NCBI GenBank assembly: GCA_947184155.2
Contig: CAMXCT020006564.1
Coordinates: 213,501 to 277,500 of the forward strand
Source of the DNA: Cladocopium goreaui
Lineage: Eukaryota > Sar > Dinophyceae > Suessiales > Symbiodiniaceae
Direction: 5' to 3'
Length of the DNA: 64,000 nucleotides
Shown here: piece by piece, positions 18,546-44,795 of the stretch
How positions within the stretch are numbered: the first letter of the stretch is position 1
Layout: each line of letters begins with the position of its first letter
Notes under the pieces: model-generated
The model's database searches: none
Seen by the model: only the letters and a program-made list of their open reading frames with translations
Told to the model about the DNA's origin: nothing
Program-made: the position numbers and the translations under genes

Positions 18546-18551
18546 CAAGGC

Positions 18552-19930: not shown

Positions 19931-20126
19931 CTTATCGTGTCTGATGCCACTGGCATCGTCCTATCATCAACCTAACCGTTACACGGCGACCTTTCTCTGC
20001 CCTTCCTATATCTTTCATTTCCTGCATGCCATTATTTCGTCTCTAAGGATTCTCCGTGATGAAGAGTCGGAAAATGAAACTATTTTGGAAGAGCCAGTGC
20101 CAGAAACTGTTCGCCGTGTGCTTTAG

Positions 20127-22300: not shown

Positions 22301-22304
22301 GGCG

Positions 22305-24250: not shown

Positions 24251-24254
24251 AAAG

Positions 24255-24376
24255 GACAGTGTCACAGCGTCGCTCTGGCTCGGCAGCGTCGCAGCGTCGA
24301 AGCGTTGAAGCATCGCAGCGTCGCAACGTCGCAGCGTTGCAGCGTCGCAGCGTCCACGGCCCCATTGCAGCATCGC
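24255..24376 (+). repeat. CGTCGCAG array
   Basis: Short 8-9-bp tandem words (CGTCGCAG, CGTTGAAG, CATCGCAG) form a low-complexity block after the minisatellite. Confidence 0.9.
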
Positions 24377-24412
24377 AGCGGGGCCTATGTTTTGCCGGAA
24401 TGTACTACTGGG

Positions 24413-25954: not shown

Positions 25955-26460
25955 GTGTGTGTGTGTAACATCTGAATAGATGTAAAACTTCTACTTTTGT
26001 AAAGGTTTCATCATATATATATATATACATATTTTAGGTTCTTCACCTCATATACTCATGTTCATCCCAGGCTCAGGTCTCATTTCTTTAGGTAGGCTTT
26101 TTAGGTTTAGGTTTTTTGTTTTTGTTTTTTAATTAAGTATATAAGCAGGGGGCAGTGGCCCACTCATGAGTCCACTGCCAACGAAGCTACTCATGAGTTG
26201 GGAGGATATCGGGACTGATCATCCCGACATACCTGCATTTTTGTCAAACCTACTTTTCTGCAATGGGACGTGGCTAACCCAAGAACCACCTTGCCGTTGT
26301 CAAACAATCAGTTTCTTTTCGCTTTTGCACTGTTGTCGCAATCTGAGAATTCCTCATTTCTGGTCGCAAAGGGTTTTCCTGGCAGGTGAATCTGAATTGT
26401 TTTTGCACGTAAGATCCATTCATCATCCTAATTCGATAAGATTGTTCTGAACAAGTGTGA
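25955..26460 (+). repeat. About 510-bp direct repeat, copy 2
   Basis: Near-identical second copy of 24413-24932, with a shorter TA microsatellite and single-base differences. Confidence 0.9.
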
Positions 26461-28009
26461 AACCCGTTATGGTGTTGCAATTCTGACCCCTGAACTTGTA
26501 TTGGTGAATTATATAAGTTTACAATTTACGTCCTACGTTTTGACTTCCACCAACCCGACATTCAAACTTTGTGTCCGTGGAGCGTCCCTTTTGAATAATT
26601 GATTCGGCTGAATGACCAGCCACTGTTCAAGTGAGATGCACTTCGAACGGACTCCTGGCCACGTCGAGCTGGTTGCAAAACCGTTTTGTGCGGTTTGTTC
26701 ATGTTACCAGTGGGAGAATGGAAATGGAGTAATGCCGGACAGCCAACTATTGGCCACAAATACATATAAGTAACCGTCAAAATTAGTGGAGGGCTCAAGT
26801 AGTATAGGTGCTAGACTTGGGATGTTCAAATATGTGTGCAAACCTTTCACGAGCGATACCGGAACATCCACTTACCGGCATCCTATTTTGTCACCTAGCA
26901 TGGGAGTGCCAAAGTTCACAACCGATAGGGGACCACCTACTTTGGCCACGTCCTTTTCCGAGTACTAAGTCGTTTTGCGCGCCGCTTTTTTTTGTATATT
27001 GAGACTTATTTCTTTATATTGTATATCCTCTCACACAGTGTATGCTATTCCTGAATGGTGTTGTCTGAAAGCAAGGTTAAATGACAGAAGGAACGCAATA
27101 TACCATCGTCATATTGCTATGAAACCCAGAACTTCAAAGGACACCAAAAACTCACCCAGTCACAACGCCTAGGTTAAACTTAGCCTTTGTGAAACTGGGC
27201 AATTTTGATGAAATTACAACTTATTATGATACATGTGAAAAGGCCGTGAAAAGTCAGTGAAAAGGCCGTGAAAAGCCCGTGAAAATATGGTTCTTGATGT
27301 TTACCACAATCTCCTGTCATTTGGGTAAATTGTAGCCTTTTAGTCAAACCTGTCCTTTGTGATAACGGACTTAGTAAACCTATCCTTTGGAAGCACTGGG
27401 AAATGATGTTTTGACGGTCGGTAAACGTTGGTTAGTCATATCCCAGTATAAATGGTTCAAACCAGATAGAACCGAACCCTTGATTTTATTTTTTCGTAAT
27501 ATATTTTCTTCCTCCCCGAATGCGTAGCGAAGAGTTCTTTGTTTTCTTGGTCGTCGTACGTCTGGGGGCTGAAGCCTTGTTTGCGGCCCGTTGCACGTCG
27601 CGACGTTTTGATCGGAATGTACATTCCTGGGCATGACATAAGCTTACGCTGGGCGCAAGATGGCTCAGCATGGGCCCGACGACCACGACGACGACGACGA
27701 CGACAACCACAACAACCACAACAACCACCACCACCACCACAACCACAGCGTGTACGAACCGAAATAACCTGCGGTGTGGGCGGCCACCCCACGCGGAGCG
27801 GGGTGAATAAACGATTTTGCCTTCATTGCTCCTGCTTTGTTTCTTTTCGTTAGTCTTTCTGTTTGTGTACGTCATTCTGTACGTAAAATGATAGCAAAAG
27901 TAGATTTAACATCGATTTCTTTTAAATGAACCAAAACGCAAAGTGTATCAGCGTGTTCATGACAGTTCAGTGTGTTATTCTTTATTGCTCGCTTAACTTG
28001 CAGCAATGC
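26461..28009. other. No gene recognised; GAC/CAA trinucleotide tract
   Basis: The interval is non-coding in appearance. At 27680-27755 a compound tract runs from CGACGACGACGA into CAACCACAACAACC and CCACCACCACC. Two imperfect AAAAGGCCGTG words repeat near 27240. Confidence 0.6.
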
Positions 28010-29255
28010 TGCCACCCTGCGGCTCATCCACCCTGTAGCTTGACTGCCACCCGCGGCTTCATTGCCACCCTGCGGCTTGACTGCCACCCGCGGTTTCATT
28101 GCCACCCTGCGGCTTCATTGCCACCCGCGGCTTCATTGCCACCCCTCGGCTTCATTGCCACCCCGCGGCTTCATTGCCACCCCCCCACCACCCTGCGGCT
28201 TCATTGCCACCCCTCGGCTTGATTGCCACCCCGCGGCTTCATTGCCACCCCCACCATGCGGCTTCATTGCCACCCCGCGGCTTCGTTGCCACCCCGCGGC
28301 TTCATTGCCACCCTGCGGCTTGACTGCCACCCGCGGCTTCCTTGCCCCCCCGCGGCTTGATTGCTACCCCGCGGCTTCATTGCCACCCTGCGGCTTCATT
28401 GCCACCCGCGGCTTCATTGCCACCCCTCGGCTTCATTGCCACCCCGCGGCTTCATTGCCACCCCCCCACCACCCTGCGGCTTCATTGCTACCCCGCGGCT
28501 TCGTTGCCACCCCGCGGCTTCATTGCCACCCCCACCACCCTGCGGTTTCATTGCCACCCCGCGGCTTCGTTGCCACCCCTCGGCTTGATTGCCACCCCGC
28601 GGCTTCATTGCCACCCCCACCATGCGGCTTCATTGCCACCCCGCGGCTTCGTTGCCACCCCGCGGCTTCATTGCCACCCCGCGGCTTGACTGCCACCCGC
28701 GGCTTCCTTGCCACCCCGCGGCTTGATTGCTACCCCGCGGCTTCATTGCCACCCTGCGGCTTCATTGCCACCCGCGGCTTCATTGCCACTCCGCGGCTTC
28801 CTTGCCACCCCGCGGCTTCATTGCCACCCCCACCACCCTGCGGCTTCATTGCCACCCCGCGGCTTCGTTGCCACCCCGCGGCTTCATTGCCACCCCCACC
28901 ACCCTACGGTTTCATTGCCACCCCGCGGCTTCATTGCCACCCCTCGGCTTGATTGCTACCCCGCGGCTTCATTGCCACCCTGCGGCTTGACTGCCACCCG
29001 TGGCTTCATTGCCACCTGTGGCTTCATTGCCACCTGAGGGCTTGATTGCCACCCCGCGCCTTCATTGCCACCTTGCAGCTTGATTCCCACCTTGCGGCCT
29101 CATTGCCACCCCGCGGTTTCATTGCCACCCCGTGGCTTTATTGCCACTTCGCGGCTTCATTGCCACCCCGCGGCTTCATTGCCACCCTGCGGCTTGACTG
29201 CCACCCGTGGCTTCATTGCCACCCTGCGGCTTGACGCCAACCCGTGGCTTCATGT
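28010..29255 (+). repeat. 1.25-kb 18-mer array (GCGGCTTCATTGCCACCC)
   Basis: About 65 units of roughly 18 bp occur, with C/T variants and occasional CCCACCACC insertions. Larger blocks of about 350 bp are themselves repeated (for example around 28120-28480 and 28420-28750). Since 18 is a multiple of three, long frames reading CGFIATPRLHCHP appear on both strands. They are repeat translation. Confidence 0.95.
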
Positions 29256-29518
29256 AAACTCATGTCTGCATACATATCGCTTCATGAAAAAAAGTTTCTT
29301 GTGTTTCACTTGTGCCAATATGAGAGATTTGTTGGGGAAATGTAACGAGCATGAGCTTGGAAAGCCTCTGGTTCCATTTGCAAAAATCATGAGATCTTTG
29401 GGAACCCTTTTTACAAGTCCTGCATTCGTGACTTCTGTGCGACGTTCTTGAGTAACATTTACATTCTATGGTATAATCGCTTCTTGCATGTAACCGAACA
29501 AAATATAAAGATTCTTCA

Positions 29519-29800
29519 ACGTAACGTGCCATGCACCTTAGACGTCACTTGAACGTTAATGCCACTCCATCCCACCCCACCCACTGCATCAGCGTAAGAC
29601 ATCTGGACCGTAACGTGCCACTCACCTTCCACGTAACTTGAATGTAAAAGCCGCTCCATATTAACACCGAAACCTCCCCCACTGCATCTGTAAGACCTCT
29701 TCCACGTACCGTGCCATGCACCTGACACGCAACTTGAACGTTAATTCCCCCCATTCACTTCTCCACCCCACCCCCCTACTGCACCACCCCACTCCATGAA
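29519..29800. repeat. Three imperfect copies of a ~90-bp unit
   Basis: Units begin near 29519, 29609 and 29703 with ACGTAACGTGCCATGCACC, then CGTAACTTGAACGTTAA and a C-rich end. They are AACGT-rich and diverged. Confidence 0.75.
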
Positions 29801-30400
29801 GATCTGCACCTCCAAACCTTTGAACATCAATTTCTCCACCCGCATTTTCGTCACATAGGTCTTTGAAATTGACATGCATGCCCTGCTGCATTTCGCTTCT
29901 ACCAAATCTATTTACTGACCACCCAATGTTCGAACATGCTCTGAACAATCTATCCAAATTTCAAGTTTTACTGTGCTTCGCCATTTTGCAGGTATGACTC
30001 CTATCACTTGCTCGTTGGGTTGCCATCCTCCATGTACAACGTCTGTGCTATGCAAAAGTTTCTGCAACAACAGCCGCTTGCAACAGTTTTCTTTTAATTT
30101 GCAAGCACGAATAATTCAATCACACGCAGCTCTTCAAACTCTCAAGTGAATTGCTCACTCGCTTCAGCGCGTTTTAAACTTCAAAGTGGGGCAGCCTCTC
30201 TTTCCATGCTTTTCTGGCCGAGCCTTTCCATACTGATTGCATTCTCGCGTGCAGCTTAAGCGCTCAAAATCGCAACTTGTGTCTGTCACTACGCCGCTCC
30301 CTTTTCTCCCTTGTTCAAGGCCCGGACTTCAGACCTTTCAGCTGGTGTTTACTTTGCTCGCTTGCCACCTTGGGCTTCTCATCTCCGCTCGGGACAGCTC
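29801..30400. other. No gene recognised; possible 5' region of the giant ORF
   Basis: Mixed-composition sequence with pyrimidine tracts. It leads into an ATG-containing candidate first exon at 30416. No TATA-like or spliced-leader acceptor can be asserted. Confidence 0.35.
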
Positions 30401-30415
30401 GGCTTTCCCGCCAGG

Positions 30416-30636
30416 ATGGCGCGCTTTTTCAAGCTCAGTACCTTCGCTGAGGCGATGTGCATGTGCATGCAAGCTGACACCTCACACTTTTGCACTGCAT
30501 GTCAGGTCGAAGACGAGATTCTGGTCTTAAGCAACTTGTTTGTCTGGAGCGGCCGCACCGCGTGGGCTGATCTTCATGACGAGGACGGGGGGGGGTCAGG
30601 CTTCAATGCAATTCGTTCAAAGCTGGCTAACCTAAG
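30416..30636 (+). CDS. Candidate first exon of the giant gene
   Basis: From ATG 30416 the frame reads MARFFKLSTFAEAMCMCMQ, then a Cys pair (FCTACQ) and an acidic stretch ending near CTAACCTAAG. It looks protein-like and shares the strand of the 31-41 kb ORF. Exons at 31.0 and 31.3 kb may connect the two. The donor is not certain. Confidence 0.35.
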
Positions 30637-30924
30637 GATGCCACCTTCCATATCCAGTTCTATTTACGTGTCCTTGCTTCAGATCTTCACCTATATACTA
30701 GAACGCTACTCCTTCTTGCGTCGAATGCGGCCTCTGCATCTTCCACTTCCATGGCCCTTCCCTTTACACGTCAGGAATTTGGCCCCGAACTTGCAGCAAG
30801 TCCCACGGCAGCGGCTTCTTGTGCAGAGGCGCAAGCATGCCGAACAGGTTTCAGCTTGTGTGCCCTTCTCATGCTGCAATTTTCACATGTCACACTTCAC
30901 GTCCGGGGTCTTTTGCTGTTTCAC

Positions 30925-31560
30925 ATGGCCTTTTCTGTTTATACCGTCATTCTTTTGACACAGTTCGCCGGGGCACGTTCTCAATCTTTTTTTTGCATTG
31001 CATCTCGCGCAGGACTCGGATGATTTCCAAAGTGTTGCTTCCTACTTCTCGGTGGAAGACTCAGAGGAGATCGCGCGGTTTTGATGCTGCAACTATTTTT
31101 GGTTTTATTCAAATGTCAAACCTGTGTTTTGATTGACACTGTCTCGTTTTCGCGCTTCACGCAGTGTTCGGATCATTGTATTTCCCGTTTCCTTGCCTGT
31201 ATACCCTTTTCTGTTTATACAGTCATTCTTTTAACACAGTTAGCTGGGAGCACGTTCTCACTCTGTTTTTTGTGGCATTCCATCTCGCGCAGGCGTCGGA
31301 TGATTTCCAAAGTGTTGCTTCCTACTTCTCGTTGGAAGACTCCAAGGACATCGCACGGTTTGATGCTTCAACTATTTCTGTTTTTGCTACGTCCGTCTCT
31401 GGTTTCATGCAAATACGAAATATGTCGTTTGCCTAACACTTTCGCGCTTCGCGCAGTGTACGGGTCGTTGCACGTTCATTTTTGTTGCATATATCCTTTA
31501 CACTGTATACCCTCATGCTTTCAACACAGTTGTTCAATGCACGTTGTGAATTTCCCTTTT
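30925..31560 (+). repeat. Tandem duplication (~280 bp) carrying a repeated mini-exon
   Basis: The blocks at about 30929-31200 and 31205-31490 match at a 276-280-bp offset, with a third, more diverged partial copy to 31560. Each of the first two copies has a CTCGCGCAG acceptor, then a 65-base segment reading SDDFQSVASYFS(V/L)EDS. The differences between copies include conservative amino-acid changes. This resembles exon duplication upstream of the giant ORF. Confidence 0.65.
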
Positions 31561-34500
31561 GTTGCTGTTTGTTTGCTTTTAGGTGCGAGTGACGGCCATT
31601 CACACGACTGGTTCGGATTCTTGTCTAGATTTTTTTGTCCGAAGTGTGCGCGCCAGGATTTCCTTCAGCTTCGCGATCTACAGTGCGGGCAGCCACACCC
31701 TGCATTCGCAGGACACCGCTTCTGCCGCTTGCACCACAGCGCAATCAACCAATCCTTTCGCCGCTCGTCCTTTCTTCCCCCGAAAGCAAAAGTGCTTGAG
31801 CCGGATGTCCGAATTCACGCTCCCGTTCCTTCGGGTTGGCGCGCATTCAATGTGCAGGGCGATGGACGGTGCGGATACAGAGCTCTTGCGAAATTCTTAG
31901 GAATTTCTTGGACGGATGTCATGCAGCGACTCCTTCCGTTGATGCTGGCCGCGCAGCACACCTTCCAGCCTCATGAGCTCATGGCTTTTGTGATGGCCAT
32001 GGACCCTGCCAACCCCTGCTCCCGCGCAGCTTGGCTGTCGCACCGCCACATTTTGTTGCTCAGCCAGCTGCGCGATTGGTTTCCGGACGGCATCGCAGTT
32101 CGCAAACTTCACGCCGGCCTTGACTTCATCCATTTTCAGCCTGATGGCGATGTGCAACTGGCGTCTCACATTTCTTCCGCATCTGTTTGCGTTCTGGGAC
32201 TGCTTAGCATCCGTGCCCCCCATTTCGTTCTGCTTCACTCTACTCCTTTTGAAAAGTCGCGAGCGGGGTTGCTTGGGCGATCTTCTGCCTTGCCTGCGGC
32301 CCGTGCCATGCAGCCATCGAGTTTGGATTTCGCCGGCGGCTCTTTTGCTTGCATGGTGCCGACCAACTTTGAGGATAGACCTTTGCGTTTTGCTTCCGCA
32401 GAACGGTCCTGGAGTCTTGCTCTTCCAGAGCAGCAACTTGTCACTTTCACGCTGCGCTCTCTCCTGTCCGGCGCTCACCTCTGCACTGTGACGCTGCCAG
32501 TTTCGGACCTCTGGAACAGATCGCTCCACATGGTTCTCATCAAAGTCATTGCTAATGTTTTGCAGGCGTCGCCCTTCCACCTGCGGTTGTTTGCGTCCTC
32601 CGACGTGGTCTGTCCAACCCCGACTGGCCCGCAGCTTGCGCCGCTTGTGTCCGTCAAGCTTCTGCGGATCCCAACGCGCAAAGACTTAGCTGACGAGCTC
32701 CTCCGAGCCATTGACTTGAATGACGTTGCTTGCGCTCAGGAGCTGTTGTTTGATGGGCAGTGCCCCAATCACCCTGCAGAAGGCACCCTGCACCCTCTGT
32801 ATGCAGCCCTGAACAAGAAGAATGTAGATATGGTCCGCGCTCTCCTCCTGGCGCGCGCTGATGTCGCTTGCCGGTATGATTTCGGCGGCACCCCGTTGCA
32901 TTTGGCTTGCAGGCAAAGCATGCCAGCAGCTGTTGATCTTTTAATCAACGCCAATGCCCCGGTGGATGCAACTGACGTGGAACAAGATTCGGCCCTCCAT
33001 GTCGCTGCAGTTTATGGGGATGCTGCCTGTGTTCGGCTGCTGCTTGCCGCATCAGCGCCAGGCGCGAGCCGCAACCTCCGCCTGGAGACCCCTCTCACCG
33101 TTGCTGTGGACACAGGTGCGCCGGTTGCTGTCGTTGCTACATTGATGCAAGCTGCTTGGCCCGACAGCTGGCAGGTTCTTTTCCAAATGGATTTATTCCA
33201 TATTTGCCGGGCGTTGGGCTTATGTCGTTTTCCATTGTTTGCAACTTGCGGCGCGTTGTCTTCCCAACGAGACTGTTATCCTTTGTTGTCCGGGGGTGTA
33301 ATCTTGCGCGAAAGCGCAGAAAGCAGCAACATATTGGAGGCGCTGGAGCCTGAGATCCTCGTCCAAATTCTGCACTACGCTCTCTCTCCGCAAACTTTCT
33401 GCTACACAATGCGCGTCTCCAATGAATTTTGCGAGCTAGTCCAATCACCGCATACTTGGCCCGGAAACTTGCGCCTCGCACCATGCACATGCCAGCGCCT
33501 CTGTGCGAACCTCTGTCTTCGAGCGGTTGTCCAGGCAGTGCCCCATTCATGTCCTTACTCCCCTGTTGCCCATTTGACTTTCGCGCTCGCGCCGCGGCCC
33601 CGCAATCCATTGTGGTCCTGGCATCACTACCATGCTGAGCCTCATGGCGCCAATTTCTGGTTCACGAGTTCTGCTTCTCCTTCACCGCCGGTGTTCGCTT
33701 TGAATTTATCTTTTGCACGCTGTGCTGGTTTGGCGGAGTGCCCGGACTTGGAATTGCTTCTAGGGGTTTTTGCTTCCGGCTTTTCTTCTTTGCAGGGTTT
33801 GCTTCACTTGAGCACCTTCCCCCCCGACGCCCGCAATGTGGCTGCTGCGAAGCTCAACATCAATTCCGGCCAGTGCTGCTCCTTGGCCTCTTTCCTCACA
33901 CATGACAGTTTCCAAGCCAACTCATGTGATCTGTCGTTGGCCGGCATCGCTCCACAAAAGTTAACTTTTGCATGTCGCCAGCAAGACCAAATCTGCTGCC
34001 TGTTTGGCAATGACGGTTCTGTGCTGCTGCAGTGGCGCTGCGTCGGTTTGCCAAAGAACACGCCGTTAAACTGTTTCGTGGCGTTGCATTCTCCATCGGC
34101 TCCCCTGTCCAATTTGGCGCCCGCTCCGTCAAACGGCTTCCGGCGGCCGGTGCGGGTGACACAGGCGCGCTTGCATCAAGGGGTTGGCCTCGCTCGCGTG
34201 CTGCCGTGCCTGGACCTATGCGGGGGCTTCTGGGATCGACTGCCGCAGACTTGTCAGCACACAGTTTTGGCGTGTTTGTGTGCTCTTAACGATCTTGTGA
34301 CGTTCCTACAAACGCACAGAGCCGCTTGTGCCTTTCTGATCGATGCGAGTCAGCACAATGCACTGGTCGCGTCTGTTTCCCCTTGCTGTTGCACGAGGCT
34401 GTGTTTGAACAAATGCATTGAAGCGCTGCTGTCCCAAGGTTTTCCGATCCACAAGAAGTTCCTTTTGGGGTGTTTCAACCCGCGCTCCTTCCCTCCTCTT

Positions 34501-37500
34501 CATCGAACATGGCAAACTTTCCACTCTGTTGACTTTCGCCACGTCGTTCGGATGGCTTCGCGCATTTCCCCTTCAGTTTCCACGGCCGTCATCGAGTTGT
34601 CGCCCGTGTTGCTCGGGCAGTCGCAGCTCTACTTGACAATAGGCATGAGCACGGGACCTCACCCTGCAGCAGTTGCTTGGCCACACCTCTTCAGCCTGCA
34701 GGCCCCATTTTCCCAACGCGGGCTTCAGCTGGAGATCCGAGATGGGCGTTGCAACGGCGCGCGCTGGTGCACAGAAGTCGAGCGAATGCAAATGCACGCG
34801 CTGCGCCCCATCGATTTTTCGCGATGTCAAACTTTCACCTTTGTATGCTCTCCTGCAAGTGTTGCGCTGTTTGATTCCCGTGGGGACTTGGTCTCGCTTT
34901 GTCCGCAGCCTTGGCCGGCCACAGAGTCGAATGAGCTGAAAGGCTTCATAGGCTTAAGGGGCGCCGCACCTTTGCCCCGCCCGGACCGGGACACCACAAT
35001 TATTCAGCCAGTCTTGACTCAAGCTCGTCGCGAAGCCTTGCAGCTGCAGCCTCTGCTGCGTATCGTCGGGCCACATGTGTTGCACATTGGTCCCTTGACA
35101 TTGACCGGCGGTGGCAAGGCGAGTGGATCCAAAGCCGGCAGCCGCCGCCCAACCGACCCGCGTTCCACCAAGGCTCACCGCCAAGACGTGGCCATGCCCA
35201 AACGGGCTTTGATCATCAAACGCAAGTGGGCCGAGCTCATTCTTTCAGGCGAAAAAACGTGGGAGGTTCGCGGGGAGCCGACCACGAAGCGGGGAAGGAT
35301 TGCGATCGCACAAGCTGGTTCCAAACAATTGGTGGGGGAAGTCACCCTGGCCGAATGCTTTCTCATCGGTGAGCAACCTTCACCTGGCATTTGGGTTTCC
35401 ACGGGCCCTCCTTCGCAGTACATTTGGGCACCCGACAACGCAAACAAGCATTGCATTACTGACCAATCGTCGGTGAACTACAAGAAAGCCTATGCGTGGG
35501 TCATGGAACATGTGCGCAAGTATCCTGCGCCGCGGCCGTACACCCACAAACTAGGCTGCATGAAGTGGGTTAAGCTGGATGGCGGTAGTGTGGCCCAATT
35601 TTCAGCCGGCGCAACCAGCGCGGCAGGCAACCCTTTGTGGTGCGACGCAATGGACTCCGACTCCACTGGATCTGTTTCTGTCACCTCGGCCGCTGCTTCC
35701 GCTCCAGTGGTATTTTGCGACGATCATTTCCATTTTGAGTCTTCGCCAAGCCGGCTGCTTTCCCCGAATCGAACGCCCGCTTCGACATTGCTCGGCGCCA
35801 GTTACCCCGGTTCTCCGCGCCTGCGTACTCCTCACAGTCCAACTGTTACTGTTGGGGAGGTTCCGGCGATTTCACTGTCAGCGGCCCTCCTTCGTGACGA
35901 TGCTTCTGATTCTAGTTCTGATGCCTGGGCAGACGCGTCTTTGGCTTTTCTTTCTTCCAACTGCAGAGCTTCCTCGTTCTTTCAGGCGTTGCAGAACGCG
36001 TGTGGCTTGCGTTCTGCTTGCTTGGCAAAGACTTGCGCGCAGCTGGCTTTAACTTCGTCTGCGTGGCATTGCTTCTTCTCCCATCCAAAACGCTTTTCTT
36101 CTGAGCTTCCTTTCTCCTTCATTCAAGACGTCCACTCCCACCTTTCGTGTGCGCCGCTACTGCTTTGGATCCTTCCGGCCGGTGATCTGCTTCTCTTGTC
36201 GGATGGTTTTTGCGAGCCGTATGAAGGCAGTGTTGTGGATTTTCCAACGATTGTTTTGAACTCTACCAATGCTTGGTTCTTTCCCGTGGTGATGACATTG
36301 CGCCCCATTGTTGTCCCAGCGTTGAGCTCTTGTCCCGCAGTCGGATATCTGCACCTTCTCGTTTTTGGATTGGCTCCCACGCTTCTACCTCCGACGGAAA
36401 ACCTTTTCCATTGCTTCAAAACTACGCGCTTGGAATGCGTAGGTCACTTGGAGACGCTGCGTGACACAGTAGCGTTGTCCATTTGCCCTTGCATCCTGGA
36501 AATGGGCCAGCATCTTTGTGGTCGGGGGCTCTCGCAGCTTGCTCTTGTGTTGGCTCCTGCAGAGCCTGTAGACCTTTTGATCCTGGACAGCAACAGTTGT
36601 TTGTTCCACGTCTCCAGCTTCCACACCTTCCAGCGAATTGAATGGGGCGCCGCATTGCTCCGGCTTAAGAACCCAAATTGTTTCCTGTTCGTTTTCATCC
36701 ATTCGACCAAGCATTTTTTGCAAGCGCTCTTGCGCGTTCCAGGTTCCACTGGTCACGCCGAGGCTTGGCTAGGCCGGGCGCAGCCCACGGCTCATGCAGC
36801 GTGCGTGGCGACCGTTCCATTGAACCTGGCAGAACCCACGCTCACCGAGCGGCTCAGCCGTGAAGCGCTGACAGTTTTTACGCCATGCGAGTTACTCACT
36901 TCCTCGCCAGACGCTGCCAGTTGCACAGCGGGTGCGTCGGGCCCTGCGCAAATGGAAGACGACTCAGTCAATGCCTGTATAGCCTCGCCGGGCAATTTGC
37001 TTCGGGGTACACCTGAAGACTTCAACCGAGCTTTTGCAGACGTGTACCGCAAAGATCCAGAAAGAGCAAAGCTGATCTCTCGATACATCCTTGCCGACCT
37101 TGCCCCCTTCCCACATGAGCAGCTGAAAAATGCCTTGCCGGACGTCTATTCAATGACAGACAACCTTGCCCAAAAAGCGGGCTGCCCCTTTGAATGGGCT
37201 TTCCTCCTTTTTCTACCCGTTCTTGGCACTGCGTGCTCCAAAGCCAGGCTGTTCATCAACGAATTTTTCCTCGTGCCGCCGCTGCTTTGGTTGGGCTTAT
37301 GCCTCGACAGCGGCGCCAACAAAAGCGGCATCATGACAGCCTTGGCAGACATCGTCTCTGGCTTTGAAAAGGAGTTGCTCCAAAAGGCGCTGGACGAAGC
37401 TCGTAAGGAAGCGCAGCTGGCAGAAGAGGAGGAGGATGCACACGGTGCGGAGCCAGATGAGCGTTCGTCAAAAAAACGCAAGACCTCCTTGTCGAAAGCA

Positions 37501-40500
37501 TTAGCGGCCATCCACAACAACAAGCCCGCCTTGTTTTCCGACGAAGGCTCGTTGCCCGCCATTGGCATGCAAATGGCGCACAACGGGCACCGGGCTATTG
37601 GATTATATGATGAAGGCCGGTTCCTTCTCCGAGCGCTGGCCAACGGAGAAGGTTCCGGATTTAATGCCTCCATTATGTCCAAGCTCTTTAATGGCTCCAT
37701 TTGGAAAAGGACGGTTGTGAAGGATAACAACCGCTTCTCCATGCACCAGACATGCCTTTGTTTAGCAATGACTTTCCATGTCGAGGAATGGCATGACTTT
37801 CTGGCCAAAGATGGTGCCTTGGGCATGCAAAGTCGGTTTCTCATGTTTCACAGCAGCCCCCGCCTCGAGAAAGCAGACGCAGTCCTCGAACCTGCGGTGT
37901 ATTCCACGGGGGCTGCGCGCTCTCGAGGTGCGCCGGTCCTTCCAGCTTCATTGCTCACCCAGTTTGTTTCTGTCCTCACAAGAATCGAAAACGTTCACAC
38001 TGCAAATGCTCCTGATTTTGATGCGTCGCGGGAATTCATTCCATATTTCTTTGCCCCCGATGCCTTGGATTATTTTCGAGAGCACTACGACGCCCAAGTT
38101 CTCACGCAAGAACAATCATACTTGCAGGACCCAAAGCTTTTCAGCCATGCCGGCAAATTGAAATCACTTCCCTGGCGTTTGGCTCTGTTGTTGCATTCTT
38201 GGGCGCGTGCGTGTTCTGCCGCCGATCAGTCAGGCACGGCTTGGAGCAGAGAGCTTTCTCGCGAAGTCGTGGAGCCGGCTAAAGCTATTTTCGATTATTT
38301 GTCCTTGCAGTCTCAACTGCTCGCGCCGGGATCCAACCTCGTCAGCACCTTGGACACGCACGACTTGCGCGAGCTTGCTGCGCAGAGGTATCCGTATCTT
38401 ATCACTTTGATCGAAACCGATACTCTCCCAACTGCTCGCGCAGAAGCTGCCCCTGCTAATTCGTTGCCGGATGCTAGCCCGTCTTTCACTGTTTGGTGGG
38501 AAGCCCTTTCCCCGGACAACAAACTCTATGCTTTCGTTGCTGCGCACTGGGTTCTCACGAGCGCAAGCACAATCATGGTTGACCAGGGGACCTTGCTGAA
38601 GAAACTTCATGCAAAAGACACAGGCGTGGCATTACCAAGAGATGCTACCAAGCCATATTGCCAAAACGCGTTTTTGCTTCTGAAATATTTCCAGTTGGCA
38701 GCCTTGACCAGGACCTCCGAAAAGGCGGCTCACAGGCTGCGCAAAAGAAAGCCTCCGCAATGCCCAACTTCCCAAGTTGCATTTTCAAATTTGCTGCATC
38801 TTTTCCAGCACAAGCAGGCGAACAGCTTGGCGGAGTACGCAGAATCCTGCCTAACGGTGACCGCGTCTATCTCCACTCTGTATGCTGCCGACTTGAAGGT
38901 CCTGTTGCCGCCCGATTTCGATGTCCCGCGCATGGAGCAGTGCTTGCAGCTGCTCACGCAATACGCCACTGACGCCCGCCCTTTCGAGCACAGTGCCAAA
39001 ATTCTGAATGTCAAATCCCAGCGCGTGGCAGCCAAGCAGGTAGCGCCTAACAATCCTCCTCCTCCGCCTCCAGGAACCGAGATGTTAGCCGGGGCCACAC
39101 ACAGCGACGCGTGCTCTTCGTTGATGTACCCAGGGTCCCTCAGTTTGTTGCCTGCTTTCGTTCTCGCGTTCCACCACGCGGATCCTGCATGTCGAGCGTC
39201 TGTGGCGCACGCATTGCTGCAACAACAATGTTTCCATCTTCACCTGTCTGAAAGGGACTGCGACTTTATTCTTGGCAAGCTTCTCCGACGTGCCCCGTAT
39301 TGGCTTGGAGCTGAGTGCCACTTGCCAAAGCACATTCCCACGAGATGCATTCAACCAGACGTGAAACATTGTCTGACGTGCCACGCACATCTCAAATGTG
39401 CCGCCGCTCGCGCAGTGCCTTGTGCGCTTGGCTTGCATTGCGTGGAACAGGTCCTGCTCCTCAGCTACTCTTGCTGCTCCTGCAGTCGCTCTTATTTTGG
39501 ACCGTGGTTTGAGGGCAAAGATGCAACTGGTGCGCGGGCTAGGATGCTAGTGCAAGACAACCCACGCTACTTCTGCATCACGCAAAACATCGTCTTTGCG
39601 ACAGCTTTCTTGGACCAAGTCACCGATATTCTGCTTCATTGCGGCGATTCTTTCCGAGGCATTGTGAATGTGCTGCGGCCCAAGCTCCACATGAAAATTC
39701 GAACGCTGGAGAAGCATCTCCGCGATTCGTGGCTGCAATACTCCGTGTGCAAGTTTTTGACAAACAATCGCACTTCCATCAATTGCTTTGTCGGCAAGAA
39801 TGGCATGGAACCCTGGTGCCGTGGACTCGAAGACCAGGTGCTTCACCAATTTCAGCGTCGCTGGCTCCTGCAACACCAGTGTTCCAAGTGCGAACGAGGC
39901 ATTCTAGGCGTGGACGGCAATGCCAAAGTTCGTAGCAAACTGTGCGCCAACACGGATGCGGGCGTATGGGATTGCAGGCCTCTGAACGCCCATTGCCGGA
40001 CTGGATGCCAGAGTGCTCCCATTCCTAGTCGAAAATATTGCGCCGTGCACCTCCGAGATGCTGACCCGATTTTTGGTTGCGATCTCATTTTGCAAATGAT
40101 CCTTTCCTTCCTCGCAACGACAGCAACCCTGCTTTCTCGCACCGAAGCTGGTCGCCACAAGTCGCCAGATATTGTCGCGCTTTTCCCGCTTTGTCGACGA
40201 ACGCGGAAAGCGTTGAGTTTTGCTGTGAGCCACGCTAAGCTTCAATATCCAGTTTCGCTTCTTTCTGTCAAACGTATTCCGCGTTCGCGGCGGTATGCTT
40301 TCCAAACCAAGACAGGCCAAGCCTTTTCGCTATCAAGCGCCTTGGTTCCCACGCACTACCAACAGCAATATGGTCAATCCTTGTTGGAGCCCGTTTCACG
40401 AGAGTGCCAATCAAAGCCACGCGTCGGACATCAAGTCCAGTTCTCTGCGTCCGAGAAAAATGACGCGTGTCGCCGGCAATGGGAAAAATCTCGTGCAGCA

Positions 40501-41166
40501 CGGCGCAGTGGGGGCGTTTTAGCCGCTGTCAAGGAATGCCAAATCATCAGCGCCATCAAGCTCGTGTACACCCACGAATCCCCAACAGGGGTCTACTTTT
40601 TCTTGGCTGAGCTGTTTGAGTTTCTGTCTGCCGGCCGCAATGTCAATTTGAAGACTGCCAAGCGGAAGACTCGCCTGCGAACACTTCAGCAAACCATGCC
40701 GCTGGTCTTTTACGATTGCGCGTGCACGTTGCAGCGCTTCATGGCTTCCAAGAAACGACGCCGCATGAGCAAAGTTGCTCGTACCCTCAGCCGGCTTCGC
40801 CTTGTCATCGACAAGTTCCATTTTCGCAAAGGGCACAGCGGCTGCAAGCCTGATGGCACTCGCCCGTTTCCCAAAACGTGGCCTCAGACGCATGCCTCGA
40901 GCTTCCCCAACATTAATGACAGCGCAGCTGAACAATCTTTTGCGTTTGTTCGCAAAATTGCGGTGGCGGCGCGGCGCATGACCCCAGTGCGTGGCCTTCT
41001 CTTCCTTGCGTCATTGCTGCACGCTCGCAATGTACAACTCGAACTCATGGGGATCAAAAAGGCAGAACTGGCAGCGGCCAAGAAGCGAAAATTCATGGCG
41101 CGCCGCAACTTCCAGGATGCAGTGGAAACGCTGCCATTTCGACGACCAGCTTCGCAGCAGCTCTAA
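31081..41166 (+). CDS. Giant OTU-ankyrin-F-box-ASCH-DUF3987-KDZ transposase fusion
   Basis: This is one open frame of 3361 codons. The first ~167 codons are hydrophobic read-through of probable intron; coding proper likely begins at an acceptor (GCTTTTAG) ending at 31582. In order it carries an OTU protease-like domain, three to four ankyrin repeats, two F-box-like plus beta-rich cassettes, an ASCH domain, a Ser/Pro-rich region, a DUF3987-like P-loop region, a helical winged-helix-like segment, and a KDZ transposase with zinc sites and a D-D-E triad at the C-terminus. The transposase would cut and move DNA. The N-terminal modules suggest interference with ubiquitin signalling and RNA recognition; that reading is inference. 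No internal stop or frameshift exists over more than 9.5 kb, which argues for recent or continuing function. An alternative is a host gene made from a domesticated transposon. Upstream exons at 30.4-31.3 kb may belong to it. Confidence 0.85.
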   Translation: MMLQLFLVLFKCQTCVLIDTVSFSRFTQCSDHCISRFLACIPFSVYTVILLTQLAGSTFSLCFLWHSISRRRRMISKVLLPTSRWKTPRTSHGLMLQLFLFLLRPSLVSCKYEICRLPNTFALRAVYGSLHVHFCCIYPLHCIPSCFQHSCSMHVVNFPFVAVCLLLGASDGHSHDWFGFLSRFFCPKCARQDFLQLRDLQCGQPHPAFAGHRFCRLHHSAINQSFRRSSFLPPKAKVLEPDVRIHAPVPSGWRAFNVQGDGRCGYRALAKFLGISWTDVMQRLLPLMLAAQHTFQPHELMAFVMAMDPANPCSRAAWLSHRHILLLSQLRDWFPDGIAVRKLHAGLDFIHFQPDGDVQLASHISSASVCVLGLLSIRAPHFVLLHSTPFEKSRAGLLGRSSALPAARAMQPSSLDFAGGSFACMVPTNFEDRPLRFASAERSWSLALPEQQLVTFTLRSLLSGAHLCTVTLPVSDLWNRSLHMVLIKVIANVLQASPFHLRLFASSDVVCPTPTGPQLAPLVSVKLLRIPTRKDLADELLRAIDLNDVACAQELLFDGQCPNHPAEGTLHPLYAALNKKNVDMVRALLLARADVACRYDFGGTPLHLACRQSMPAAVDLLINANAPVDATDVEQDSALHVAAVYGDAACVRLLLAASAPGASRNLRLETPLTVAVDTGAPVAVVATLMQAAWPDSWQVLFQMDLFHICRALGLCRFPLFATCGALSSQRDCYPLLSGGVILRESAESSNILEALEPEILVQILHYALSPQTFCYTMRVSNEFCELVQSPHTWPGNLRLAPCTCQRLCANLCLRAVVQAVPHSCPYSPVAHLTFALAPRPRNPLWSWHHYHAEPHGANFWFTSSASPSPPVFALNLSFARCAGLAECPDLELLLGVFASGFSSLQGLLHLSTFPPDARNVAAAKLNINSGQCCSLASFLTHDSFQANSCDLSLAGIAPQKLTFACRQQDQICCLFGNDGSVLLQWRCVGLPKNTPLNCFVALHSPSAPLSNLAPAPSNGFRRPVRVTQARLHQGVGLARVLPCLDLCGGFWDRLPQTCQHTVLACLCALNDLVTFLQTHRAACAFLIDASQHNALVASVSPCCCTRLCLNKCIEALLSQGFPIHKKFLLGCFNPRSFPPLHRTWQTFHSVDFRHVVRMASRISPSVSTAVIELSPVLLGQSQLYLTIGMSTGPHPAAVAWPHLFSLQAPFSQRGLQLEIRDGRCNGARWCTEVERMQMHALRPIDFSRCQTFTFVCSPASVALFDSRGDLVSLCPQPWPATESNELKGFIGLRGAAPLPRPDRDTTIIQPVLTQARREALQLQPLLRIVGPHVLHIGPLTLTGGGKASGSKAGSRRPTDPRSTKAHRQDVAMPKRALIIKRKWAELILSGEKTWEVRGEPTTKRGRIAIAQAGSKQLVGEVTLAECFLIGEQPSPGIWVSTGPPSQYIWAPDNANKHCITDQSSVNYKKAYAWVMEHVRKYPAPRPYTHKLGCMKWVKLDGGSVAQFSAGATSAAGNPLWCDAMDSDSTGSVSVTSAAASAPVVFCDDHFHFESSPSRLLSPNRTPASTLLGASYPGSPRLRTPHSPTVTVGEVPAISLSAALLRDDASDSSSDAWADASLAFLSSNCRASSFFQALQNACGLRSACLAKTCAQLALTSSAWHCFFSHPKRFSSELPFSFIQDVHSHLSCAPLLLWILPAGDLLLLSDGFCEPYEGSVVDFPTIVLNSTNAWFFPVVMTLRPIVVPALSSCPAVGYLHLLVFGLAPTLLPPTENLFHCFKTTRLECVGHLETLRDTVALSICPCILEMGQHLCGRGLSQLALVLAPAEPVDLLILDSNSCLFHVSSFHTFQRIEWGAALLRLKNPNCFLFVFIHSTKHFLQALLRVPGSTGHAEAWLGRAQPTAHAACVATVPLNLAEPTLTERLSREALTVFTPCELLTSSPDAASCTAGASGPAQMEDDSVNACIASPGNLLRGTPEDFNRAFADVYRKDPERAKLISRYILADLAPFPHEQLKNALPDVYSMTDNLAQKAGCPFEWAFLLFLPVLGTACSKARLFINEFFLVPPLLWLGLCLDSGANKSGIMTALADIVSGFEKELLQKALDEARKEAQLAEEEEDAHGAEPDERSSKKRKTSLSKALAAIHNNKPALFSDEGSLPAIGMQMAHNGHRAIGLYDEGRFLLRALANGEGSGFNASIMSKLFNGSIWKRTVVKDNNRFSMHQTCLCLAMTFHVEEWHDFLAKDGALGMQSRFLMFHSSPRLEKADAVLEPAVYSTGAARSRGAPVLPASLLTQFVSVLTRIENVHTANAPDFDASREFIPYFFAPDALDYFREHYDAQVLTQEQSYLQDPKLFSHAGKLKSLPWRLALLLHSWARACSAADQSGTAWSRELSREVVEPAKAIFDYLSLQSQLLAPGSNLVSTLDTHDLRELAAQRYPYLITLIETDTLPTARAEAAPANSLPDASPSFTVWWEALSPDNKLYAFVAAHWVLTSASTIMVDQGTLLKKLHAKDTGVALPRDATKPYCQNAFLLLKYFQLAALTRTSEKAAHRLRKRKPPQCPTSQVAFSNLLHLFQHKQANSLAEYAESCLTVTASISTLYAADLKVLLPPDFDVPRMEQCLQLLTQYATDARPFEHSAKILNVKSQRVAAKQVAPNNPPPPPPGTEMLAGATHSDACSSLMYPGSLSLLPAFVLAFHHADPACRASVAHALLQQQCFHLHLSERDCDFILGKLLRRAPYWLGAECHLPKHIPTRCIQPDVKHCLTCHAHLKCAAARAVPCALGLHCVEQVLLLSYSCCSCSRSYFGPWFEGKDATGARARMLVQDNPRYFCITQNIVFATAFLDQVTDILLHCGDSFRGIVNVLRPKLHMKIRTLEKHLRDSWLQYSVCKFLTNNRTSINCFVGKNGMEPWCRGLEDQVLHQFQRRWLLQHQCSKCERGILGVDGNAKVRSKLCANTDAGVWDCRPLNAHCRTGCQSAPIPSRKYCAVHLRDADPIFGCDLILQMILSFLATTATLLSRTEAGRHKSPDIVALFPLCRRTRKALSFAVSHAKLQYPVSLLSVKRIPRSRRYAFQTKTGQAFSLSSALVPTHYQQQYGQSLLEPVSRECQSKPRVGHQVQFSASEKNDACRRQWEKSRAARRSGGVLAAVKECQIISAIKLVYTHESPTGVYFFLAELFEFLSAGRNVNLKTAKRKTRLRTLQQTMPLVFYDCACTLQRFMASKKRRRMSKVARTLSRLRLVIDKFHFRKGHSGCKPDGTRPFPKTWPQTHASSFPNINDSAAEQSFAFVRKIAVAARRMTPVRGLLFLASLLHARNVQLELMGIKKAELAAAKKRKFMARRNFQDAVETLPFRRPASQQL
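31800..32260 (+). other. OTU cysteine protease-like domain in the giant ORF
   Basis: The QGDGRCGYRALA block has D261 and nucleophile C264, as in OTU deubiquitinases. A second block, PHFVLLHS with H381, fits the catalytic histidine. The spacing of about 117 residues is short but within the OTU range. The expected activity is cleavage of ubiquitin or a ubiquitin-like protein. Confidence 0.75.
32692..33150 (+). other. Ankyrin repeats in the giant ORF
   Basis: Residues ~538-690 contain the typical TPLHLACRQ, SALHVAAVYG and TPLTVAV helix starts with ~33-residue spacing and xVxLLLxxxA second helices. They would act as a protein-binding surface. Confidence 0.85.
33330..34980 (+). other. Two F-box-like plus beta-rich cassettes
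   Basis: Cassette 1 starts at ~residue 752 (LEPEILVQILHYALS, then SNEFCELV). It is followed by a Cys-rich helix and a beta region (LTFACRQQDQICCLFGNDGS). Cassette 2 starts at ~1050 (FWDRLPQTCQHTVLACLC) and has the parallel beta region (FTFVCSPASVALFDSRG). The repeated order suggests internal duplication of an F-box plus lectin-like or SPRY-like module. The fold of the beta part is not identified. Confidence 0.5.
35194..35580 (+). other. ASCH domain in the giant ORF
   Basis: Residues 1372-1500 start with KRALIIKRKWAELILSGEKT, followed by WEVRGEPTTKRGRIAIAQAG and a VGEVTL strand. This is the ASCH (ASC-1 homology) signature, a PUA-like fold that binds RNA or modified nucleic acid. Confidence 0.8.
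37012..38210 (+). other. DUF3987-like P-loop NTPase region with altered Walker A
   Basis: Residues ~1978-2377 have the DUF3987 layout: a helical N-terminal part, a hydrophobic strand before the P-loop, then LYDEGRFLL with D2177/E2178 as Walker B, and a fingers-like segment on the DNA-primase/helicase plan. The P-loop reads SGANKS (S2077-S2082), where family members usually have GSGKS. The glycine before the lysine is replaced by asparagine. A basic KKRKTS nuclear-signal-like patch lies at ~2130. Confidence 0.65.
39100..41166 (+). other. KDZ-type transposase domain
   Basis: A Cys/His cluster (from H2763, HCLTCHAHLKC) precedes the catalytic region. Then come CSKC (C2934, C2937), GVDGNAK with D2945, and YCAVH (C2987, H2990). 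These are followed by FYDCACT with D3212, DKFHFRKGHSGC (H3247, H3252, C3255), and SAAEQSFAFVRK with E3284. This DGN ... YDxAC ... HxxxxH ... AEQ order is that of Kyakuja-Dileera-Zisupton transposases, with a D-D-E triad in an RNase H fold. Terminal inverted repeats could not be identified. Confidence 0.75.
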
Positions 41167-42664
41167 ATCCATGCCGACCTCCTGCTGTTTCACCCGCTTT
41201 ACAAAAAAAACCGACAGAGTTCGAACCGCAGCAAAATGAAATTTTCGGCAGCGACTTTCGTGCGAAATGTGTCCTACTTGCCAACCTCTATGTCTCCTGT
41301 TCGATCTCCATTGCCAAAGTCCTCCGTCTCAGCCATGACACCGTGCAATGTGTATCTGTACTGTCGTCTCTGTTTCTTCAACATGTTTTCCATCATCCAC
41401 GAAACTAACATGCAGTTTGTGTCTTGTACCGAACCTCCACGGCATATGCACACTAACGACATTTGGTCTCTGAACTTGCCTTAGGTTGTAGCGTATCAAA
41501 TCGTATTTAATCTTGTTACACTGCCTTGGTTTGCAGCTTTCGGTTTGCAGCGCCCAGTTTCCATAGACTCCAGTTCCCTTAGATATCTATTGAGTTCACC
41601 ACAATGCAGACATGTACTTCCCATGCCCTATTTGAACATAGTCCAGTCCAAAGCACATGCTTCTACCTTAGCTAAAACACACACACACATTCACACACAC
41701 ACACATGGCATTTTGCCAATCGCAGCCTCACACAACCAGCGCTGCCCATCAGCACCTCTCTCCATGTGCCGTGCAACGAGTCGTCATCCGGCTGCAACGG
41801 GCTGCTGCTACGGAGCCGCTTGCCTTGCAGCTTAAGGTCGGGGGGTCGTCTGTACACGCGAAAACGGGTTCGTCTGTACACGCGAAGCGGGGGTCGTCTT
41901 TACACGTGAAACGAGGATCAGCTTCATGGACTTCATCTATTTCTTGTCCTCCTGTGCATCGTCTACACTAATCATATATATATATATGTTTTTTATTTGC
42001 CTCCGCAACGCTTCGAAACCGCGAAGAGTTAGAAGAGATGTTACTTATCAGGTTCACAGAAGATAATGACGCAGGTATGTGTCAGGTGGAGTATCGATTC
42101 TCGCCTGGTCCATGTTTTCACGGTTCGAATGTTTTTGGCACGATATATTTTCAAAGATTCTCATGGTTACATTTTGCCATTTTCATGGTTGCCCTTTACA
42201 TTTTTACTCGTGACCGTTCTAACTTTACCGCTACGACGTTACAATTTGGGTGATGCAAGTTTACACTTGTTGGTTGAGGTCTATGTTTAGTGCTTGCATG
42301 GAACAAATTTCCTACTTAGACTTTGCATTTCCCATGGTTCCTTTTCGCATTTTAATGGTTCCGGTCTACATTTTTTAGCGGGACTTTCCCAAAAAGTTTT
42401 CTTCTGTCAATTTTTTCTTTGCTGTTTTGCTTTCTATTTTCCAGTGTTTTTCTTCAGGCTCTTTTTTCTTCCGTGGTCTTTTTTGCTCTCCTCTTCTCTT
42501 CAACTGCTTTTGTGTCCTTGCCACTTTCAATACTTACGTTTTCAGTTTTTGGCAGGTTAGCTGCTACTTGTAGTGCTTTGATCTTGCCTTTGGTTCTATT
42601 CTGTGTCTGGTGTTGCTGTTGCTTTTGTTTGTCTCGTGTTCTTGTCTTCGATTTTTTGTGTCCC
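41167..42664. other. 3' flank of the giant ORF; CA microsatellite and 25-bp repeat
   Basis: No gene is seen. A (CA)n tract lies at about 41675-41705. Three copies of a ~25-bp unit with GGGTCGTCTGTACACGCGAA lie at 41842-41914. A TA microsatellite is at 41970. Further right the sequence is T-rich. Confidence 0.6.
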
Positions 42665-42669
42665 TTGGT

Positions 42670-42930
42670 CGGCCGGTCGGCCGGTCAGCCGGTCAACCGG
42701 GCATTCCGCCGGTCAACCGGGCAACCGCCCCGGTCAGCCGGTCAACCGGGCATTTCTTCCCCTAGTCGGCCGATCGGCCGGTCAGCCGGTCAACCGGGCA
42801 TTCCGCCGGTCAACCGGGCAACCGCCCCGGTCAGCCGGTCAACCGGGCAACCGGGCAACCGGGGAGGGGAGGGGTCAACCGGGATCCGGTCAGCCGGTTG
42901 CCCGGTCCGGTCGGCCGGTTACCGCCATAC
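42670..42930. repeat. CCGGTCAACCGGGCA array
   Basis: Tandem CGGCCGGTCAGCCGGTCAAC and ACCGGGCAACCGC words, with one internal duplication of about 110 bp. It is the same palindromic word family as at 14.9-15.2 and 16.56 kb. ORFs reading Ser-Ala-Gly-Gln-Pro are repeat translation. Confidence 0.9.
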
Positions 42931-44087
42931 TCAATCTCGGCCAGCTACGAAGTAACCCAAGCGCAAAAGGCCATATTGTTACTGGATCATACAGCCAAAG
43001 GAGCTAGCACGTCATCGGAAGAGCTCAATGCACAGATATCACCGCGTACTGGTAATGAGCACAATCTCCCATACCATGAGGACCATTGGAAGAGTAATAG
43101 TGCACGGAAATTCACTCCAAGCGCAATGATGAAACTATGAGAGATCCTTGGAGGACATCTCTCACCGCCCCTTCATTCTGGTCGTTCTCCAAGTGAACTA
43201 CCCCAGGCGCAGCGCCTGTCCTATTAGCACTCTTGAACATGGGCATGGATAACCCCTGAGAGTATGATGATTGGAAAAGCACTACTGAGCGGACTCTGAG
43301 TGTGCCCTGAGTGCCGTAGTCTTACTCTCATTTCACTGCGGTAGTTCTTCTCACCACTTTCGTTGCGACCCGGCGTTGTCGGTGTTTGCTTCAAAGTGTC
43401 AGGGTGAATGTTATGCCGTGAAGGCTGCTCTTTGTGATCTCGGGGAACCTGGCTGGGGGGATCCCTGGTTTCTGCATTGAGCTGTGTTGCTTCTCGCACC
43501 CGCTGAATTGGCCCCTGGTGTTTTTGTGGCGTTTCTTGTTTTTGTTATTGTAAGGGGCCTGCGTCATCATGGCACACAAGATGTCATTATGCATGCACCG
43601 AGATGATACTAAGCTATCAACTCTTGCATTAATTGATCTTTTTCACCCATAAACTGGAATCTGTCACGTCACTGCTCTGTGGTGTGTGTTGTCTTTTGGT
43701 TTGTTTGTTTTTGGTTTTGGGTGTTTGTGTTCTGTTTGTGTTTGGGGCTGTTTTTGGTGTTTTTTGGTTTGTTGTTTCTCGGTTTTTTGTTTGGTTTTCT
43801 GAATGATCGTGACAATGCACAGGACTATGTATCGGTCCTCCACCAGTTTACTTTTGCGGCCACTCTACAGCACCGGCCTTTGCGCGATTTAATTAATCAA
43901 TTCACCCCAATTGCAACATGCTCTTAAACATGTTGAACGACCTGGCGGAAGCCATGAAGGCGTTGGACGGAAAAAAAACCGCACAAATGAAACTTGCACA
44001 CTTCCACCTGTCACCTGTTGCCTATTCAAAATTTTGAAATCACACAAAACGTCCATGTACGGCTCTCCAAGTCATGCAGCCTTTTCC
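42931..44087. other. No gene recognised
   Basis: Unremarkable sequence with a T/G-rich tract at 43680-43800. It lies immediately 3' of the minus-strand recombinase. Confidence 0.5.
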
Positions 44088-44795
44088 TCATATGTAATGG
44101 TCTTTGAAGCAAGGTACCACACAAAGGGTGGAGGAACTTCGGTCGCTCTCCTTGCATTTCATACCGGAAGACATTGCCCTGCCACAAGCCAGGTGGGTTC
44201 CAGCTTCGTCCATGATCTTGTGCAGACAACGTGAAATGGCATGGCGGACATATACCTGCACAGTGTCGGGCTCAACATGTTTCGGTTGCCAAGCACCAGC
44301 AACCTGTTCGATCGCCTGTTCTTCCTCATATACATCTCTGTCATCCTCATCTTCCGAGCCGCAGCTTGATGAATCAATGTCGTCCCCAGCATCTTGCAAA
44401 GCACCTGCCTCACGGGCAAACATGCCTGACCTCGTGAGATTAGGGTCAAAACTGCCACCGACCACCTTGCCGATGAGATCCACAAGAAGCCTGAGTGGAT
44501 GGGAAATGGCATTACGTGAGTACACCAGCACAGATTGATCGGCTGACCCACTGTGATACCCAAGCAATCTCCTGACGTCATGGTCAAAACCCGCACGGGC
44601 GCTCCATGCCAGAAGGGTTGCTTTGCAGCTGTGAGTTGCAATCCTGATGTCACCAACAGTCTCGGTGTTCTTCAAAAGATTCCGCAACCACTCACCTGCT
44701 GGTGTCACGTTCAGCTGAGCTTGAGACCAACCACCACCAACTGCTGGAAAAGGCATAACAGGGAAATTTCCACCCGATTTTCCAGATGCCATCAA
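44088..44795 (-). CDS. Tyrosine recombinase, C-terminal catalytic part
   Basis: The frame holds the rest of the catalytic domain: IRIATHSCKATLLAW (H55, K58, an H-x-x-K form of the usual H-x-x-R), LLGYHSG (H81), and VLVYSRN with the likely nucleophile Y92. After the core comes an acidic tail and a terminal Cys segment (HLACGRAMSSGMKC). The frame overlaps the end of the 44792-45862 ORF; the start given is a TTG followed by ATG and is not a true start. A single missing base near 44793 explains the split. The enzyme would break and rejoin DNA in Crypton- or DIRS-like elements; no accompanying RT or capsid gene is seen here. Confidence 0.8.
   Translation of the reverse strand: MMASGKSGGNFPVMPFPAVGGGWSQAQLNVTPAGEWLRNLLKNTETVGDIRIATHSCKATLLAWSARAGFDHDVRRLLGYHSGSADQSVLVYSRNAISHPLRLLVDLIGKVVGGSFDPNLTRSGMFAREAGALQDAGDDIDSSSCGSEDEDDRDVYEEEQAIEQVAGAWQPKHVEPDTVQVYVRHAISRCLHKIMDEAGTHLACGRAMSSGMKCKESDRSSSTLCVVPCFKDHYI

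Follow-up and report, generated by a model that had tools for sequence, protein, structure and literature searches.

The DNA stretch analysed here, 64 kb long and referred to as the window, carries on its plus strand an uninterrupted reading frame of 3380 codons, running from stop to stop at 31024-41166. About 117 stop codons are predicted for this frame from its own base composition and none occurs (log10 P = -52), while the other five frames across the same interval contain 70-111 stops apiece. The 10-kb stop-free frame described in an earlier note on this DNA is thereby confirmed. Of the span given there (31081..41166), the open plus-strand frame stands and the TTG start at 31081 is doubtful. 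Ahead of the Cys box at residue 280, in-frame ATG codons are found at residues 21, 93, 114 and 172, all within or at the edge of a region of direct repeats spaced by about 280 bp (30929-31540, plus strand), and the following ATG is residue 300. The repeats probably represent a 5' untranslated or exon/intron region, and the protein may start in an upstream exon. By eye, the repeats have splice-acceptor-like ends and are perhaps duplicated 5' exons. When the host genome (1.17 Gb, 6202 contigs) was searched with the spliced-leader motif of dinoflagellates, 172 exact sites were found, against 0 for the reversed control, which marks the host as a dinoflagellate; no spliced-leader site within 3 mismatches is present in the 64-kb window.

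Modules of the giant protein

The C-terminal part of the frame holds a KDZ transposase core (40612-40992, plus strand) with YDCAC from 40711, DKFHFRKGHSGC from 40810 and NDSAAEQ from 40915. The KDZ superfamily is recognised by acidic residues of the catalytic site together with D-x-F-H..C and E-Q motifs, and the present core has D, D, H..H..C and EQ motifs. Pfam reported no KDZ match for the whole protein or for its 688-aa C-terminus, and the isolated core matched the KDZ transposase profile PF18758 at E 7.9e-5 and 22.9 bits, under the cut-off of 26.6. All five members of the alignment built on the window core gave a Pfam KDZ match, and hhalign comparison of the core with genome loci above the KDZ cut-off yielded 99.4% (E 9e-22). 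The columns Y, D, A, C, D, H, C, E and Q are invariant in the five rows, and the second His of the window copy is replaced by Arg in the row from contig C1366. By profile-profile comparison, not by the single-sequence cut-off, the core is a divergent KDZ transposase with predicted catalysis, in keeping with the earlier assignment. It is preceded by a CxC5-like cysteine cluster (39334-39663, plus strand) that covers the profile nearly in full (1-109 of 117) at E 0.0011 and 19.6 bits, under the cut-off of 26.9.

Three further plus-strand modules named in the earlier note were recovered by Pfam: ankyrin repeats at 32674-33168 (Ank_2, 4.2e-27), for which PDB matches jointly span residues 551-715; the first half of an ASCH domain at 35215-35358 (6.3e-6, above the cut-off, profile 3-53 of 103); and DUF3987 at 37183-38319 (2.9e-23, profile 2-360 of 364). 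The F-box is marginal. A plus-strand F-box-like motif at 33349-33459 exceeds the Pfam cut-off of 24.3 bits solely in the shortest segment scanned (1.2e-5, 25.4 bits) and falls under it in longer pieces (16.4 and 23.0 bits). An NCBIfam scan returned ankyrin-type matches alone, far under the cut-off. We take DUF3987 to be a helicase/primase-type ATPase family; the Walker A pattern (G-x4-[GN]-K-[ST]) has no match anywhere in the giant frame, so the ATPase claim is weak, and the nearest sequence by eye is SGANKSG within the DUF3987 segment. Searches of IMG/VR confirmed no relatives of the C-terminal, OTU-like or DUF3987 segments, and no relatives of the C-terminal segment were found in the phage records searched. 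Other giant frames (1852-2938 aa) on C711, C5926, C5618 and C62 show 27% similarity to the ankyrin region of the protein.

Near the N-terminus lies a segment that can be called OTU-like by motif only (31759-32286, plus strand). Its Cys box DGRCGYRA (31861-31884) and His box HFVLL (32221-32235) are separated by 120 residues and occur together in none of 2000 shuffles, with patterns picked after the sequence was seen. In the family alignment the Cys is kept in all six rows and HFVL in two, the remaining four rows ending or diverging earlier. The genome contains 13 near-identical copies of the segment (28 candidates, all 28 scored), four of them with a stop inside it, and a diverged family at 9 places. 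OTU was not matched by Pfam in the window segment or in 5-6 relatives, nor by a PDB profile search of the segment, and the segment is absent from the 150 PF02338 matches listed in the genome (349 candidates, 150 scored). An hhalign score of 15.6 against OTU was beaten by 3 of 30 column shuffles. In that comparison the Cys box falls in register with the catalytic Cys of the genome's OTU loci, over only 17 aligned columns. A single-sequence structure model of the segment was unusable (pLDDT 35). With Pfam, PDB and profile-profile comparison (30 shuffles) all failing, the OTU identity proposed earlier was dropped, and the suggestion that the element edits host ubiquitin signals loses its footing, since it rests on this OTU and on the marginal F-box.

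Recognisable OTU domains are abundant in this genome: the PF02338 matches number at least 150 among the 349 candidates, and many lie in frames of 1,200-2,800 aa. Many of them score equally, which suggests that OTU cargo is carried by several high-copy elements. One high-copy OTU family has an exact spliced-leader site about 3.6 kb upstream on the same strand on at least three contigs (spliced-leader/OTU pairs at C1381:10696 and 14318, C1989:28602 and 32203, and C2049:80338 and 76372).

A 28-kb element with exact ends

The C-terminal 688 residues recur in at least 16 genomic places at 98-100% identity (98 candidates, 65 scored), 14 of which match the whole query and two over 608 residues. The frame measures 3379-3380 codons in five of the 16 places and at least 3053 in nine, and is shorter in seven. 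By coordinates, the order OTU-like, DUF3987, KDZ is conserved in 13 of the 16. Alignment of copies to the window revealed shared ends at 14868 and 42932, which delimit a mobile element of 28,065 bp with common exact ends, differing host flanks and 8-bp target-site duplications. Its imperfect terminal inverted repeats are the left end CAGAAGGGCGGTACC (14868-14882, plus strand) and the right end (42917-42932, minus strand), which reads GAGTATGGCGGTAACC when reverse-complemented, and the element ends in CAG..CTC. Both ends lie in subterminal CCGG/ACCGG arrays, of which the left one (14868-15230) consists of tandem units with 110 CCGG per kb and the right one (42651-42932) has 89 per kb, compared with 1.7-6.2 per kb in three interior segments. 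The left array is a candidate transposase-binding region. Between the left end and the giant frame, a small plus-strand frame (19152-19613) encodes a CCCH zinc finger at about 19308-19376 (zf-CCCH E 1.5e-5, 25.2 bits, above the cut-off of 20.5) and is a possible accessory gene or exon.

A pattern search of the genome retrieved 13 exact left ends and one related end with two mismatches, together with 15 exact right ends and one with two mismatches. Flanks were read at all 14 left ends and at 14 of the 16 right ends, those on C3779 and C2846 being left out. Among the 196 left-right pairs, nine share an 8-bp flank, comprising seven distinct 8-mers, where 0.003 are expected; at lengths 6, 7, 9 and 10 none matches. 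At three of the 13 exact left ends the neighbour is another copy, and nine distinct host flanks are seen at the remaining ten. On the right side this holds for one of the 14 ends, and the remaining 13 have 11 distinct host flanks, one of which is common to three contigs. For one of seven insertions, that with the duplication CGAATTTG, the host flanks were joined and searched, and five of 34 matches cover all 120 bases (74-76% identity, 22-34 extra bases). Since these five run through the joint, the CGAATTTG target is a host repeat with uninterrupted copies elsewhere. On C285 (60439-60459) a related left end, GAGAAGGGCGGTACAAGGGGG, is followed by a different interior and perhaps belongs to a second family with the same terminus.

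In all seven cases the two flanks that carry a given duplication are found on separate contigs, and none of the three copies with both host flanks read (C5923, C735, C1700) has matching duplications on one contig. For the window copy, the left flank CGAATTTG has its match in the right flanks read on C735, C1700 and C1280 and not in its own right flank, AATCTCGG. Because matching flanks are never on one contig, two insertions have probably been joined in the window. Either copies recombined or separate insertions were fused by the assembly across the 28-kb repeat, and what lies beyond 42932 is not to be read as truly adjoining what lies before 14868. Outside the element, frames at 2282-9391 resemble by eye a Copia-type gag-pol retroelement, and two minus-strand frames at 44088-45883 look by eye like tyrosine recombinases, with no Pfam match.

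These data make it very likely that the frame encodes the transposase of a giant dinoflagellate DNA transposon that belongs to the KDZ superfamily and was active recently; cut-and-paste is its most likely mode of movement. Exact ends, 8-bp duplications, different flanks and many near-identical copies uphold the transposon reading of the earlier note and count against its alternative of a domesticated host factor. In its fuller form, that alternative supposes that a KDZ transposase was domesticated as part of a host gene, whose copies later multiplied through segmental or tandem duplication. It could accommodate the head-to-tail copies on C143, C2286 and C1851, the frame left intact in several copies and the matching flanks that never share a contig. 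Duplication, however, produces neither exact flank starts nor recurring 8-mers, whereas nine left and 11 right distinct host flanks begin at an identical base and seven distinct 8-mers recur on both sides. The duplications thus largely refute this origin, which is highly improbable, and together with the distinct flanks they rule out a host array of tandem genes.

For the KDZ transposon, a working model can be sketched. The cysteine cluster would bind the CCGG/ACCGG arrays at the ends, and the KDZ core, as follows from its family, would cut both ends and insert the element with an 8-bp stagger. DUF3987 could remodel or load DNA for the 28-kb cargo, a role that shares the weakness of the ATPase claim. 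More tentatively still, the OTU-like, ankyrin, F-box-like and ASCH modules might tether the transposase to host proteins or shield it from turnover. The KDZ and CxC5 scores of the window copy both lie below the curated cut-offs, and the zero-gap head-to-tail junctions described below are not the normal product of cut-and-paste.

Abutting copies

Head-to-tail copies with zero bases between a right and a left end are present on C143 (168565/168566), C2286 (16335/16336) and C1851. The junctions on the three contigs represent two different sequences, those of C2286 and C1851 being identical. In this shared junction the upstream partner breaks at window position 28896, and of its right end no more than about the final 8 bases are retained; for the short upstream partner on C2286 the break falls inside a plus-strand array of 19-bp tandem repeats (28010-29253). 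C1851 has two left ends separated by 13.3 kb (80818-94126). None of the matches listed to KDZ, DUF3987 or the OTU-like segment is on this contig; both of its copies therefore seem to be devoid of the giant frame, and the pair looks like a deleted derivative. One outer duplication is common to C143 and C3043 and another to C3779 and C2286; across these separate contigs the pattern might reflect a multimer that was inserted as a single unit or had grown in place. A nested origin of the junctions, with one copy inserted into another's end, was also considered. The right end would then be followed by CCATACTC, and not one of the 14 right flanks read starts in this way; they do not include that of the third copy on C143, which makes the rejection partial.

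We regard it as possible but rather doubtful that the transposase, with DUF3987 as its own replication-type ATPase, moves the element as multimers: the ends would be joined precisely head to tail, in a circle or by a rolling mechanism, before the whole multimer integrates and creates one 8-bp duplication. If true, a eukaryotic element of 28 kb would use a mode intermediate between cut-and-paste and replicative transposition. The abutting copies could expose a joined-end intermediate.

Directly abutting ends on three contigs, with two junction sequences, would also suit a Helitron-like or recombinase-like element that forms circles or moves by rolling circle and carries the KDZ domain as a passenger. 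Helitrons are not known to create target-site duplications and are recognised by their Rep/helicase protein. In the giant frame and in the six frames of 17320-31085, no Rep/HUH or recombinase was matched, and both 8-bp duplications and inverted repeats are present. A Helitron was rejected on these grounds. Polinton/Maverick elements are characterised by genes for a protein-primed DNA polymerase, a capsid and an integrase; no such Pfam match was obtained in the frame or in the same six frames, and the length of the duplication is also against them. OTU-like proteases are known in Helentrons, according to the available text of PMC6431247, which is a further point for a rolling-circle origin. On balance the passenger scenario is hardly credible, and a KDZ transposon remains the preferred reading.

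DUF3987 beside KDZ and comparison with known elements

Diverged relatives give a longer view of the protein. Compared over 660 codons with the relative on C1366, the C-terminal part is 59, 69 and 35% identical at codon positions 1, 2 and 3, and 53 of 166 fourfold sites are equal, from which old purifying selection at the protein level can be deduced for this part. Among five young copies, 13 synonymous and 30 nonsynonymous changes and one stop were counted (dN/dS 0.74); constraint among them appears weak, and the changes are too few to show selection.

Diverged KDZ matches occur on 28 contigs and diverged DUF3987 matches on 21; seven contigs are common to both among the matches listed, and on all seven the two domains lie on the same strand about 1.3 kb apart or less. 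The order is that of the window on C1366, C2490 and C1835 and the reverse on C5810, C66, C245 and C1194. The reverse-order loci may be copies of two families, since the scores of C245 resemble those of C1194, and those of C5810 come close to those of C66. On the other 21 of the 28 diverged-KDZ contigs no DUF3987 relative reached the threshold. Because DUF3987 recurs close to KDZ at seven diverged loci, and in either order, it may be a working partner of the transposase. None of the nine diverged OTU-like places is on these seven contigs, so DUF3987 and KDZ may represent an older core to which the N-terminal half was added later.

The same relatives bear on whether the frame encodes one protein. 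The transposon could be real and giant without the frame yielding one protein: the frame might give rise to more than one transcript or to a polyprotein that is later processed, its N-terminal half being a separate accessory gene. That half does look separable, because the relatives on C1366, C2490 and C1835 combine DUF3987 and KDZ on contigs that lack an OTU-like match, and the start codon of the giant frame is not fixed. Separate genes, on the other hand, would not need the single frame of 3379-3380 codons that is kept in five of 16 places, and we consider a divided frame unlikely. A single transposase protein is the reading retained here.

Giant KDZ transposons have been described in algae, reaching 30.3 kb in Ectocarpus and 31.7 kb in Chlamydomonas (PMC12477816, available text). 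The window element resembles them in superfamily, total length and recent activity, and the giant Ectocarpus families also bear extra genes (PMC12477816). It differs in its dinoflagellate host, in DUF3987 and in having the extra domains in the frame of the transposase itself; the accessible part of PMC12477816 names no domain fusion of this kind for giant algal KDZ elements.

Among other KDZ elements, Zisupton has terminal inverted repeats as well. The 8-bp duplications found here are also created by Zisupton and Dileera (PMC12730594, available text), elements of fish, fungi and nematodes that share the KDZ core and have a cysteine cluster, to which the CxC5-like cluster described here, below its cut-off, may correspond. 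A platyfish Zisupton isoform with an F-box is cited in the accessible text of PMC12062965, and fish and nematode Zisupton/Dileera proteins of up to about 1400 aa are given in that of PMC9297572; the present frame of 3380 codons is set apart by its length and by its ankyrin, ASCH and DUF3987 modules. The fungal Kyakuja elements, which have the KDZ core in common with it, are described in the consulted portion of PMC12730594 with 7-bp duplications, CA..TG ends and no inverted repeats, whereas the window element shows no matches of length 7, ends in CAG..CTC and possesses inverted repeats. A very long frame with ankyrin repeats is also known from the giant Gypsy-like Burro elements of planarians (4,873 aa, with ankyrin and RING/MATH-TRAF modules; PMC6431247, available text), but Burro is an LTR retrotransposon and the window element a DNA transposon.

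Among the papers listed on DUF3987 and transposons, none deals with such an element, judging by its title and the opening of its abstract. Among the literature matches listed, which include few subscription journals, neither the module combination of the window nor KDZ elements in dinoflagellates are described. This mix of modules fused to a KDZ transposase thus seems to be undescribed, giant KDZ elements themselves being known in other algae. The family provides a defined case, recent in origin, with exact ends, end arrays and a DUF3987 domain that recurs beside KDZ in both orders in diverged loci of this genome. Such a case brings the idea of an ATPase partner within reach of testing and extends the hosts of giant KDZ elements to dinoflagellates.
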